A DNA stretch of 64,000 bases, from positions 1,426,001-1,490,000 of the forward strand of contig NZ_CP101323.1 in NCBI RefSeq assembly GCF_024300825.1, read 5' to 3'. The notes beneath the pieces were generated by a model that was not told where the DNA came from, did not search any database, and saw only the letters and a program-made list of their open reading frames with translations. Positions within the stretch are counted from its first letter, which is position 1, and every line of letters starts with the position of its first letter. Shown here in pieces: positions 51,162 through 55,168 of the stretch. A program made the translations under genes and the position numbers. The DNA is from Natronomonas gomsonensis. GTDB lineage: Archaea > Halobacteriota > Halobacteria > Halobacteriales > Haloarculaceae.

Positions 51162-51860
51162 ATGGGTGTTGAAATAAGGGAATCGCCCGTCTCCGATGAC
51201 GAGTTCGAGGAGATGAAGCAGTTCGTCCACGACTACCTCGCGGCGAGCGTCGAGGGCGAAGACGAGGGAGGACGGATGCGGTGGTACCCGTGGCACTCCG
51301 CGGAGTACCGGTACAACCACATCCTCAACGTGACCGAACTCGCCATCGAAATCGCCGAAAAGGAGGGGGCGAACGTCGACGTGACCCGCGTCGCGTCGCT
51401 GTTCCACGACATCGCGAAACTCGAAGCCGACCAAGACGTCCACGCCGAGGCGGGGGCTCGCGTCGCCTGCGAGTACCTCCGCTCGCGGACCGACTACCCC
51501 GAATCGTTCATCGAGCAGGTGTGTGACGCCGTCGAGACCCACTCCTATGAGGGCGACCTCGAAAACGTCCCACTCGAGACCCAGTGTCTCATGGAAGCCG
51601 ACCTCCTCGATAAGGTCGGCGCCAACGGAACGACGCTGATGTTGCTTCGGATGGGATACGAGGCCCGAACCCACATGGACGCGAACGAGATGGTCGGACG
51701 CGTCCTCGAACGCGGCGAGGACGCCATCTCCCGGGTCCGTTCGGACACCGCAGAGAGCATCGCCCACCAGCGAATCAAACGCGTTCGGTGGTTCAAGGAG
51801 TGGCTCGAAGGCGAAATCGCCGAGATGGAGCCACCAGACCCAAACACTGACCTCTTATAA
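51162..51860 (+). CDS. HD-domain phosphohydrolase
   Basis: The product is 232 aa. The HD motif residues are in order: EYRYNHILNVTELAIEIAEK (H), ASLFHDIAKLEADQ (HD), DVHAEAGARVACEYL and AVETHSYEG (H), LMEADLLDKVGANG (D). The set is complete, so a metal-dependent nucleotide or phosphate-ester hydrolase is predicted. The start ATG has a strong Shine-Dalgarno GGAGGGGG five bases upstream, unlike most leaderless genes here, so translation is leadered. The stop overlaps the convergent LysE gene by 6 nt. Confidence 0.88.
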   Translation: MGVEIRESPVSDDEFEEMKQFVHDYLAASVEGEDEGGRMRWYPWHSAEYRYNHILNVTELAIEIAEKEGANVDVTRVASLFHDIAKLEADQDVHAEAGARVACEYLRSRTDYPESFIEQVCDAVETHSYEGDLENVPLETQCLMEADLLDKVGANGTTLMLLRMGYEARTHMDANEMVGRVLERGEDAISRVRSDTAESIAHQRIKRVRWFKEWLEGEIAEMEPPDPNTDLL

Positions 51861-52520
51861 AAAGAGGGCGTCGGCGAGGAAGTACACGCCGAACCCAGCG
51901 AGTACGACCGCACTCCCGTAGGCGATAGCCGGCGCCAGCGACTCCATGCGCTGTCGAGCGGCCGTAAGCGTCGCGGGGAAGCCAGTTATCCAGACGCCGA
52001 TACCGCCGAACAGGCCGGCTAACAGGACCGGACTACCGGTCTCGACGACGACGAGGCCGGCAAGCGCCTCGCTGGCGTACGACAGCACGTCGACGGTTCC
52101 GGGTGTCAGAAGCGCCGTGCCCGCGGTGACCCAGAACAGTATCTGATAGGGATTCGTCAACGCGAGGATGAACGCCTTCGAGAAGCCACGGCTATCCTCG
52201 TCGCCGGGCGTCTCGGCGGCCCGAAAGCTCTCCTGTGCGCCGCGGGCGGCGCCGTAGGCGAAATACAGCATCAACAGCCCACCGACCCCGACCATGACCG
52301 ACTGCAGCGTCGGCATCTCCTCGATAGCGGCGACGACGCCGAGCAGCGCCAATCCGAGGAAGACGGCGTCGGCGGTCATCGCGCCCAGTCCGGCGCGGAA
52401 CCCGGCGGTCCACCCCCGCAGGACCGACTCCTCGGCGATGACGGCGTTCATCGGCCCCGGCGGCGCCGCCAACGCCAACCCGAACAGCACGCCCGCCGAA
52501 AGCGTCGAAAGGAGAGTCAT
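51855..52520 (-). CDS. LysE/RhtB-family amino-acid exporter
   Basis: The product is 221 aa with about six membrane helices. MTLLSTLSAGVLFGLALAAP then PGPMNAVIAEESVLRG is the conserved N-terminal LysE signature (G-P-x-N motif), and AFILALTNPYQILFWVTAGT matches the middle N-P-x-x-x-x-F/W motif. It exports amino acids or derivatives. The TATA-like TTTTGTTTAG (minus strand) is about 25 nt before the ATG and sits inside a TCACGCC/GGCGTGA inverted repeat. Convergent with the HD gene. Confidence 0.88.
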   Translation of the reverse strand: MTLLSTLSAGVLFGLALAAPPGPMNAVIAEESVLRGWTAGFRAGLGAMTADAVFLGLALLGVVAAIEEMPTLQSVMVGVGGLLMLYFAYGAARGAQESFRAAETPGDEDSRGFSKAFILALTNPYQILFWVTAGTALLTPGTVDVLSYASEALAGLVVVETGSPVLLAGLFGGIGVWITGFPATLTAARQRMESLAPAIAYGSAVVLAGFGVYFLADALFL

Positions 52521-52614: not shown

Positions 52615-53793
52615 CTACATCCCCCGACCCATGAGTCGACTGCGGACGATGTCGGCGTCTTTGTTTCCAGTTCCCGTGTTGAGGAGGACGACGGTGTCGT
52701 CGGAATCGAAGGCGCCGGTGTCAGCGAGGTCCCACGCACCCGCGGCGGCCGCTCCGCAGGCGACGCTGACCTCCAGTCCCTCGTGTTGGGCGACCGTCGC
52801 GGCGCTGTCGAGGAGGTCTTCGTCGTCGACGGCGACGCCCGACCCGCCGCTGGCGCGGACGGCCTCGACGGCGGGCAGTCCGCCGGCGGGGTCGGGCACT
52901 TCGAGACTGCCGACGACGGTGTCGGGGTACTCCCACGGTTCGGGGTCGTCGCCATTCTCTGCGGCCTCGACGATGGGCGCACAGCCGTCCGGTTGGGCGG
53001 CGTACAGACGGGGCGTACCGTCGACGAGGTCGAGTTCGTCGAACTCCCGGGCACCCTTCCAGAGCCCCGAGACGGTAGCCCCGTGGCCGACGGGCACGAC
53101 GACGGCGTCGGGAGCCGTCCAATCGAGGGATTCTGCGAGTTCGTGGTACACCGATTTCAGTCCCTCGTGGCGGAACGGCGAGTCGAAGGCGGCGGCGGGG
53201 AACCACTCCTCTTCGTCGGCCGCCGGCAGTTCCTCGCGTTCGCGCTCGTAGGTCTCGCGGGCGTCGTCGAAGCGCCCCTCGACGACGCGCATGTCGCCGC
53301 CGTGGACGTTTATCATCGCCTTGTTGATGAAGTTCGCGCGACTGGGGACGAACACCCGCGAGAGCAGGCCGGCGCGGGCGGCGTAGGCCGCAGCGGACTG
53401 TCCCCCGTTGCCCGTCGTTGGCAAGGCGAGCGTATCGGCGTCGGCCCGGTTGGCGGCCTCGGCGACGACGGCGAGACCGCGGTCGGTCACCGTTCCAGTC
53501 GGGTTGTGGGCCTCGTTTTTGATGTAGACCGAATCGACGCCCAACTCCTCGGCTAGCCGTGGGGCTTCGACCAGCGGCGTCGCTCCCTCGCCCATTCCGT
53601 CGGGAACGACCGGGAACAGTTCGCGGGCCGCCCACGCGCCGGTGCGGCCGGCGAGCGTCTCCCGACTCAACTCGGCGGCGTCGTAGTCGTAGGTCGCATC
53701 GAGCGTCCCGCCGCAGTCGGGGCATCGGGTCGGAGCCTCGTCGTCGACCGTCTCACCGCAGTCAGTACAGCGAAAGCCCTCGAAACTCGTCAT
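52615..53793 (-). CDS. threonine-synthase-like protein lacking the PLP lysine
   Basis: The product is 392 aa. An N-terminal zinc ribbon (C9xxC12, C24xxC27) and the fold-type II core (GATPLVEAPRLAEELGVDSV, LALPTTGNGGQSAAAYAARA, VVPVGHGATVSGLWKG, the end VVLLNTGTGNKD) match haloarchaeal threonine synthase paralogues. The PLP-binding motif, normally N-P-T-G-S/T-F-K-D-R-G, reads NPTGTVTDRG: the Schiff-base Lys is Thr at residue 103 (codon ACC, 53485-53487). It is therefore unlikely to do normal threonine synthesis. A pseudoenzyme, a changed chemistry or another lysine are alternatives. The frame is otherwise intact. Confidence 0.85.
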   Translation of the reverse strand: MTSFEGFRCTDCGETVDDEAPTRCPDCGGTLDATYDYDAAELSRETLAGRTGAWAARELFPVVPDGMGEGATPLVEAPRLAEELGVDSVYIKNEAHNPTGTVTDRGLAVVAEAANRADADTLALPTTGNGGQSAAAYAARAGLLSRVFVPSRANFINKAMINVHGGDMRVVEGRFDDARETYEREREELPAADEEEWFPAAAFDSPFRHEGLKSVYHELAESLDWTAPDAVVVPVGHGATVSGLWKGAREFDELDLVDGTPRLYAAQPDGCAPIVEAAENGDDPEPWEYPDTVVGSLEVPDPAGGLPAVEAVRASGGSGVAVDDEDLLDSAATVAQHEGLEVSVACGAAAAGAWDLADTGAFDSDDTVVLLNTGTGNKDADIVRSRLMGRGM

Positions 53794-53908
53794 ACGTGAA
53801 GTTTGGACGGCGGTGGCAAAGCCCTGTCCTTCCCGGTCAGACGGACCCACCCTCACTCGCGGTGTCGGGACGGAAAGGCGTTTGAGGTGGCCGGTCGAAT
53901 TCGATGGT

Positions 53909-55168
53909 ATGCACGTCGTCGTCGCCGGTGGCGGACTCGCCGGACTGGTCGCCGCCCGACGCCTCGCGGAGGCGGGCGCCGAAGTCGAACTGTTCGAGGA
54001 ACGCGAGGAAGTCGGCGGCCGCGTTCGCTCCCGAACCGTCGACGGGTTCACGCTGGACCGCGGCTTTCAGGTGCTGTTCTCCGCCTATCCCGCCGCTCGA
54101 CGCGAACTCGACCTCGACGCGCTGGACCTCCGGCGCTTCGCCCCCGGCGCGACCATCGCCCGGCCGAACCACCGCTCGACGCTGTCGGACCCGCTCGGCC
54201 AACCGACTGCGGCGGTGCCGACGCTTTTGAACCGCGACGTTCGGACGGGCGACAAACTCCGCCTGTTTCGCCTCCAGCGGGAGTTGAAGCGTCGCGAGTG
54301 GGAGACGCTGTTCGACGGCGACGACGCCTCGATACGGGAGTACCTCGCAGGGCAGGGCTTCTCGAAGGCGTTCGTCGAGAACTTCGCGGCACCTTTCTAC
54401 GGTGGCATCACGCTGGACCGCTCGCTGTCGACGTCGAGTCACGTCTTCGAGTACACGTTCAAGGCGCTCTCGGAGGGCAAGACGGTCGTTCCCGCGGCAG
54501 GGATGGGTGCGATTCCGGCGCAACTCCGGAAGCGGGTGGAGGCAGCGGGTGCGGTTATCGAAACCCAAGACGCAGTGAGCCGAATAGATGCCGACGAGGA
54601 CCGCGTGAGTGTCGAGACGAACGACGAACACCGCTCACCCGACGCCGTCATCGTCGCCACGGACCCGAAGTCGGCCGGTGACCTGACGGGAATCGAGACG
54701 CCCACGGAGGCGAAAGCCTGCGTCACCGTCCACTGTTCGGTGCCGGACCACCAGACGCTGGACACCGGGTCACGCATCCTTCTCAACGCCGCCGACGACC
54801 GTCCGAACACCGTTGCGCCGATGTCAGCCGCCGCCCCGGAGTACGCACCCGAGGGCCGTGACCTCCTCAGCGCGACGTACCTCGGCGAACAGGACGAAAG
54901 CGACCAAGAACTCATCGAGACGGTTCGGGAGTCCCTCGATTCGTGGTATCCCGAGAACCACTTCGGCGAACTCGAAGGCGTCGCCGTCGACCGAATCGAG
55001 TTCGCACAGTTCGCCCAACAGCCGGGGTTCCGCTCGTCGCTCCCCACCGCCGATGCCCCGGAGGGACCGGTGTACCTCGCCGGCGACTACACCCGGTGGT
55101 CGTCGATTCAAGGCGCCTTGGAGAGCGGAAAGCGGGCCGCAGACGCGGTTCTCGCGAACGAGGACTGA
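53909..55168 (+). CDS. FAD-dependent amine oxidase/phytoene-desaturase-like oxidoreductase
   Basis: The product is 419 aa. MHVVVAGGGLAGLVAARRLA then EVELFEEREEVGGRVRSRTV gives the FAD-binding dinucleotide fold and the GG-motif of flavin amine oxidases and carotenoid desaturases (PF01593). FTLDRGFQVLFSAYPAARRE and the C-terminal GPVYLAGDYTRWSSIQGALE (FAD-contacting G-D) complete it. A VENFAAPFYGGITLD segment is shared with protoporphyrinogen-oxidase-like proteins. Substrate is unknown; no carotenoid genes adjoin. Start at the ATG of MHVVVAGG, not the longer frame from 53813. Convergent with the phosphoesterase gene with no gap. Confidence 0.87.
   Translation: MHVVVAGGGLAGLVAARRLAEAGAEVELFEEREEVGGRVRSRTVDGFTLDRGFQVLFSAYPAARRELDLDALDLRRFAPGATIARPNHRSTLSDPLGQPTAAVPTLLNRDVRTGDKLRLFRLQRELKRREWETLFDGDDASIREYLAGQGFSKAFVENFAAPFYGGITLDRSLSTSSHVFEYTFKALSEGKTVVPAAGMGAIPAQLRKRVEAAGAVIETQDAVSRIDADEDRVSVETNDEHRSPDAVIVATDPKSAGDLTGIETPTEAKACVTVHCSVPDHQTLDTGSRILLNAADDRPNTVAPMSAAAPEYAPEGRDLLSATYLGEQDESDQELIETVRESLDSWYPENHFGELEGVAVDRIEFAQFAQQPGFRSSLPTADAPEGPVYLAGDYTRWSSIQGALESGKRAADAVLANED

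Follow-up and report, generated by a model that had tools for sequence, protein, structure and literature searches.

Introduction

The usual description of a pseudoenzyme is of a paralogue that originated once, following a duplication, and within the PLP families such proteins are already a known category. In eudicot plants, TSB-like is an inactive PLP-family pseudoenzyme of fold type II, a paralogue with changes at A190 and E386 that forms a distinct plant clade and serves as a conserved non-catalytic activator of its partner enzyme TSA (PMC12727527). LCB1, a non-catalytic subunit of serine palmitoyltransferase, is a PLP-fold homologue without the PLP lysine (PMC3794620), and Rv3778c of M. 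tuberculosis is an expressed PLP-enzyme homologue that also has no PLP lysine and is presumed to be non-catalytic (PMC12910592).

The haloarchaeal protein studied here, P0001, shares with threonine synthase (EC 4.2.3.1; structures 2d1f, 2zsj, 1uim and 2c2b) the fold type II, the NPTG..DRG motif and an N-terminal zinc ribbon. It differs in that it has no Schiff-base lysine, scores under the TIGR00260 and NF006050 cut-offs, belongs to a family in which the presumed PLP-pocket residues are eroded, and is encoded in a genome with a true ThrC elsewhere. With TSB-like it has in common the fold type, the presumed loss of activity and the retention of the protein, but in the family of P0001 it is the lysine that was lost, many times, within one orthologous group. 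LCB1, unlike P0001, is a eukaryotic protein of fold type I that forms a heterodimer with its lysine-bearing paralogue LCB2, and Rv3778c is a fold type I relative of cysteine desulfurases. Repeated loss of the lysine within one orthologous family is what is new here. This lysine-free family is not described in the open-access papers that we searched on threonine synthase or pseudoenzymes in haloarchaea.

Gene, motif and fold of P0001

The window is the whole stretch of 64,000 nucleotides from Natronomonas gomsonensis that was analysed. The gene of P0001 and its features are located in it as follows.

52615..53793, minus strand: CDS of the lysine-free threonine synthase homologue P0001, 392 aa (open reading frame and translation)
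53713..53769, minus strand: N-terminal zinc ribbon, Cys 9, 12, 24 and 27 (cysteine conservation in orthologues)
53476..53505, minus strand: motif NPTGTVTDRG, residues 97–106, canonically NPTGxFKDRG (direct reading)
53485..53487, minus strand: Thr103 (ACC) where the Schiff-base lysine belongs (direct reading and phmmer alignments)
53401..53412, minus strand: GNGG loop, residues 128–131, counterpart of the GNT/GNA loop beside PLP (contact with PLP presumed, as in the family)
53296..53340, minus strand: family signature RANFINKAMINVHGG, residues 152–166 (conservation in both orthologue groups)
53074..53091, minus strand: glycine loop VGHGAT, residues 235–240, counterpart of the PLP-phosphate loop (G237 conservation)
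52675..52677, minus strand: Thr373, counterpart of the presumed PLP N1-binding residue (conservation in orthologues)
52618..52653, minus strand: C-terminal family signature DIVRSRLMGRGM, residues 381–392 (conservation in both orthologue groups)

The frame runs uninterrupted on the minus strand from the ATG at 53793 to the stop at 52615. The initial annotation had reported a PLP lysine replaced by threonine in a fold type II protein that was otherwise intact and in frame, and both parts were confirmed. The motif reads NPTGTVTDRG with residue 103 encoded by ACC at precisely 53487–53485, and Thr103 lines up with the motif lysine of 2d1f, 2zsj and 6cgq in phmmer alignments. A sequencing error at this codon was ruled out, because independent Natronomonas genomes at 95–96% identity have the same threonine and none of the Natronomonas orthologues with the motif covered has a lysine there.

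The four zinc-ribbon cysteines are present, and residues 68–374 gave a whole-domain match to the Pfam PALP profile (PF00291) of 229.4 bits (cut-off 35). The AlphaFold model has a mean pLDDT of 94.7 and a pTM of 0.93, and its top Foldseek matches were all threonine synthases (2zsj at 1e-27, 2d1f, and 2c2b with a TM-score of 0.89 over the query), in agreement with the sequence search, in which threonine synthase was the best match (2d1f, E 1e-42). P0001 nevertheless scored below the equivalog cut-offs of both NF006050 (280.8 < 303) and TIGR00260 (141.1 < 167.1), which a lysine-bearing orthologue, L038, passes (381.8 and 173.9, respectively), and it was far under the cut-off for cysteate synthase (TIGR03844, 39.9 < 324.9). 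The Schiff-base lysine of NPTGxFKDRG that marks a threonine synthase is absent from P0001 (Thr103).

A second copy with FKDRG, for which the initial annotation had advised a search, was found among the ten PALP genes of the host genome (G000, 3.65 Mb): a canonical thrC at C1:2196985-2197911 that encodes NPTGSFKDRG and scores 295 bits against TIGR00260 (cut-off 167). Since this thrC passes TIGR00260 and P0001 is under both cut-offs, the gene of P0001 is, judged by these profiles, not the housekeeping threonine synthase. In H. volcanii, cells with a disrupted thrC3 (HVO_2969) grow poorly, and glycine, serine and threonine relieve the defect (PMC4300041).

Distribution in the Halobacteria

The class was scanned with a DNA pattern that combined the motif with the KAMxNVHGG signature. 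It matched 289 of 391 Halobacteria genomes, with the lysine version in 108 of those (37%). Catalysis would thus still matter somewhere. The pattern counts are lower bounds, as Halorubrum-like genomes were missed, and lysine-free orthologues were found there by a shorter signature and protein searches. When 20 of the genomes missed by the pattern were spot-checked, 18 contained an orthologue, all 18 lysine-free. Outside the class Halobacteria the family signature occurred in none of 101 genomes sampled from the phylum. The first family sample comprised 101 aligned sequences without the lysine and 30 with it, the latter including paralogues. Across all sets, 13 residues replace the lysine at position 103 (A, T, V, G, R, L, D, S, N, E, F, Y and Q). 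Every Haloferacaceae copy in the sample is lysine-free. By these searches, the orthologous family is near-universal among the Halobacteria sampled, with most members lysine-free.

One genome, G131 (Natronomonas sp. CBA1123), has the gene divided between the ends of contigs C37 and C46 with some sequence duplicated, which is most likely an assembly break and not two copies.

Gene neighbourhood and orthology

Two neighbouring genes flank the gene of P0001 directly.

51855..52520, minus strand: LysE-type translocator gene, 94 bp downstream, possible operon (Pfam LysE, 92 bits)
53813..55168, plus strand: FAD-dependent amine oxidoreductase gene, divergent, a conserved neighbour of family F3 (Pfam Amino_oxidase, 181 bits)

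The conserved order has the amine oxidase gene divergent upstream, the LysE-type gene downstream and an HD-domain gene convergent with it. In the window, this HD-domain gene (51162–51860) overlaps the LysE-type gene by 6 bp; it is a conserved neighbour in many haloarchaea. The order F3-F0-F18-F7 is common to Halorarius and Halomarina, which have the lysine, and to Natronomonas and Halococcus, which do not; some loci lack individual genes. Because synteny is shared, the lysine-bearing and lysine-free copies are orthologues. Gene-neighbour clustering was filtered for acidic composition against spurious antisense open reading frames.

The neighbours vary by family: metallophosphoesterase, amine oxidase, LysE and HD genes occur in several, and the LysE gene family (F18) adjoins the gene in other families too. 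Many Natrialbaceae have a neighbour resembling geranylgeranylglyceryl-phosphate synthase (named by eye), and the order differs in most Natrialbaceae loci. Genes for a DtxR/MntR-like regulator and a TMEM165/GDT1-like membrane protein (both named by eye) adjoin the gene in several families, where they stand before the LysE or HD genes (loci L156, L167, L176, L198, L202, L210 and L212). The LysE-type neighbour suggests a possible link to amino-acid export. A functional reading from the gene neighbours was set aside; the synteny supports orthology, but the neighbours differ between families.

A lysine-bearing sister paralogue with NPTGTFKDRG and a KAMxEVHGA-like signature was observed at L254, L257, L267, L047, L108 and L110. 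In some genomes, such as G150, G208 and G396, it coexists with a lysine-free orthologue and may be its partner or an enzyme that replaces it.

Repeated loss of the lysine

Trees were built with the motif columns removed. The careful tree of 43 sequences required 9 changes of state (9–10 in bootstrap replicates), 8 of which well-supported branches make unavoidable. A faster tree with 196 sequences required 10, of which 9 were forced by supported branches, or 19 losses if the lysine was never regained. A single loss was ruled out: placing all lysine-free sequences of the careful tree together was 434 log units worse (p-AU 2e-84). Since the paralogue outgroups have the lysine, the direction of change was mainly loss. 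A few regains are possible on the parsimony counts, and L160 could be one.

At L160 (Natrinema salsiterrestre), which stands among lysine-free relatives, the motif has its lysine in an altered pocket with Ser102, Gly130 and Thr237. The lysine may have been regained there, or the pocket may have decayed before the lysine.

The initial annotation had held that orthologues with a lysine in the motif would speak against its reading. Such orthologues do exist, in 56 sequences of the tree set and in 108 genomes of the class scan; the finding itself stands, recast as repeated loss. It does not concern one odd paralogue, because one syntenic orthologous family has lost the lysine repeatedly.

Relaxed and invariant positions

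In the tree set, 128 lysine-free orthologues were compared with 56 lysine-bearing ones. Thr373 is present in all 56 of the latter, whereas the lysine-free sequences have Pro (64/128) or Thr (52/128). Gly237 is found in 55 of 56 (98%) lysine-bearing sequences and is replaced by His in 71 of 128 (55%) lysine-free ones; Asn129 declines from 53/56 to 72/128, and Ala130 (55/56 with the lysine) is relaxed without it. From the alignment with threonine synthases, we take these four positions to contact the ring nitrogen, phosphate and 3'-oxygen of PLP. For a list of PLP-pocket sites drawn up from the alignment and what is known of the family rather than from coordinates, relaxation was seen at 9 of 13 sites compared with 53 of 173 other conserved sites, with a modest p value (0.007). 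Among 9 independent pairs, Gly237 tracks the lysine in 5.5 and opposes it in none; Thr373, Asn129 and Ala130 track it in about 3, in the same direction and not significantly on their own. The initial annotation had also considered a binding-only paralogue. Binding of PLP is doubtful, as the residues presumed to hold PLP decay along with the lysine.

Two lysine-free sequences, L030 of the Haloglomus group and the uncultured L202, retain every other pocket residue that was checked. Loss of the lysine can therefore come first. A replacement Schiff-base lysine elsewhere in the protein was rejected, with no lysine newly conserved in the lysine-free proteins.

Of 142 sites conserved to at least 95% with the lysine, 74 remain at least 90% conserved without it. 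Conservation of at least 97% in both groups was found for C9, C27, D104, R105, R152, R174, R208, P290, D291 and E298, for the signature residues K158, A159, M160, N162, V163, H164, G165 and G166, and for D381, R384, S385, L387, M388 and G391 at the C-terminus. D104 and R105 are 100% conserved with and without the lysine in the tree set, and N162, R174, S385 and M388 differ in the lysine-bearing paralogues. Because this invariant set is common to both groups, the conserved function would be older than the losses and independent of the lysine. All four zinc-ribbon cysteines occur in 117 of 128 lysine-free and 53 of 56 lysine-bearing orthologues. In L045 and L082 (Halomarina/Halocatena group) most of these cysteines are gone (e.g. 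VCPGTDEHFD..HHPE), and the KAMxNVHGG and C-terminal signatures are kept.

The dN/dS values were 0.09–0.2 in five Natronomonas pairs and similar (0.03–0.17) in lysine-bearing pairs; two uncultured close pairs gave higher values, 0.30 and 0.53. P0001 thus combines the two marks of a PLP-family pseudoenzyme, namely a lost PLP lysine in a retained fold, and purifying selection on the presumably inactive form (dN/dS 0.09–0.2 and an invariant signature). Judged from the trees and substitution rates, one orthologous family has lost the lysine many times, with purifying selection on the remaining protein.

Proposed function and alternative explanations

We favour, with moderate confidence, the explanation that P0001 is a pseudoenzyme with the threonine synthase fold and a retained PLP-independent role that predates the losses of the lysine, most likely as a non-catalytic partner or regulator. 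The common ancestor would have been a PLP enzyme with a second, family-specific role carried by R152, the KAMxNVHGG signature and the C-terminal RS.LM..G residues. With catalysis no longer required, first the lysine and later the PLP pocket would have been free to drift. Ordinary PLP catalysis would not be expected of the lysine-free proteins because no internal aldimine should form. The role retained without it would most likely be non-catalytic, the protein binding, regulating or stabilizing another protein in the manner of LCB1 and TSB-like; by position, the nearest candidate partner is the co-encoded LysE-type exporter. Several observations weigh against this explanation: the lysine kept in 37% of the pattern-positive genomes, the modest p value for the pocket sites, the weak tracking of the lysine by Thr373, Asn129 and Ala130, the higher dN/dS of the two uncultured pairs, and the different gene order in most Natrialbaceae loci. 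The fuller account, by which a bifunctional PLP enzyme became a pseudoenzyme at least eight to nine times, in some cases within one genus (Halococcus, Halobacterium), with the retained role on a family-specific surface or pocket so far seen in Halobacteria only, seems to us evenly poised between right and wrong.

The main rival, in our estimation unlikely, is a ligand-binding sensor or carrier, in which the interdomain cleft would still bind an amino acid, a phospho-amino acid or non-covalent PLP, and closing of the domains would signal or buffer that ligand. Both domains of the fold are intact, and 125 of 128 lysine-free orthologues retain R208, which we take to be the counterpart of the threonine synthase arginine that binds the substrate phosphate; K158, N162 and H164 are likewise retained. 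However, other presumed pocket residues vary freely (positions 237, 239, 240 and 130).

Clearly less probable is that the protein is still an enzyme, with a chemistry that does not need the lysine and either non-covalent PLP or no coenzyme. Fold type I relatives without the lysine can act by other routes, K92, K158, K213 and K378 remain common, and the presumed pocket residues kept in L030 and L202 would fit such a chemistry. The initial annotation had likewise raised a shift of the chemistry to another residue. This was not borne out: position 103 is occupied by 13 different amino acids, no lysine is newly conserved, and Thr373 and Asn129 are lost in many lineages. A shifted mechanism should moreover leave a new conserved residue specific to the lysine-free proteins, and the screen listed none.

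Slow decay of a dispensable former enzyme is very improbable and already largely refuted. The lysine-free sequences do conserve fewer sites (142 falling to 74), but the orthologue was recovered in 18 of the 20 spot-checked genomes, frames are intact in the orthologue matches listed, dN/dS is mostly below 0.3, and many sites are invariant across many independent losses. The earlier argument for function rather than decay gains from the selection on the scaffold and from the lysine-bearing threonine synthase in the same genome.

Two ancient paralogous families, with and without the lysine, sorted by differential loss or horizontal transfer so that repeated loss is an illusion, are scarcely credible: lysine-bearing paralogues do exist (L047, L108, L254, L257 and L267), but the class scan gave one pattern match per genome with the split contig copy as the sole exception, synteny is shared, a single origin is rejected, and both states occur among closely related sequences within Halococcus, within Halobacterium and within the Haloglomus group.

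Implications

Whether this single syntenic, orthologous gene still has its catalytic lysine varies between genera, and a distinct set of residues is fixed throughout. The family would offer many independent replicates of the conversion of an enzyme into a pseudoenzyme, in which the order of events is testable, as recent losses (L030 and L202) retain the remaining pocket residues that were checked and older losses are eroded. Lysine-free members resemble threonine synthase closely enough for automated annotation to give them its name; metabolic models should not treat them as threonine synthases. The retained function, of which we found no description in the literature searched, would be a widespread haloarchaeal process. 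If the fuller account above is true, the family would serve as a naturally replicated experiment in the conversion of enzymes into regulators.
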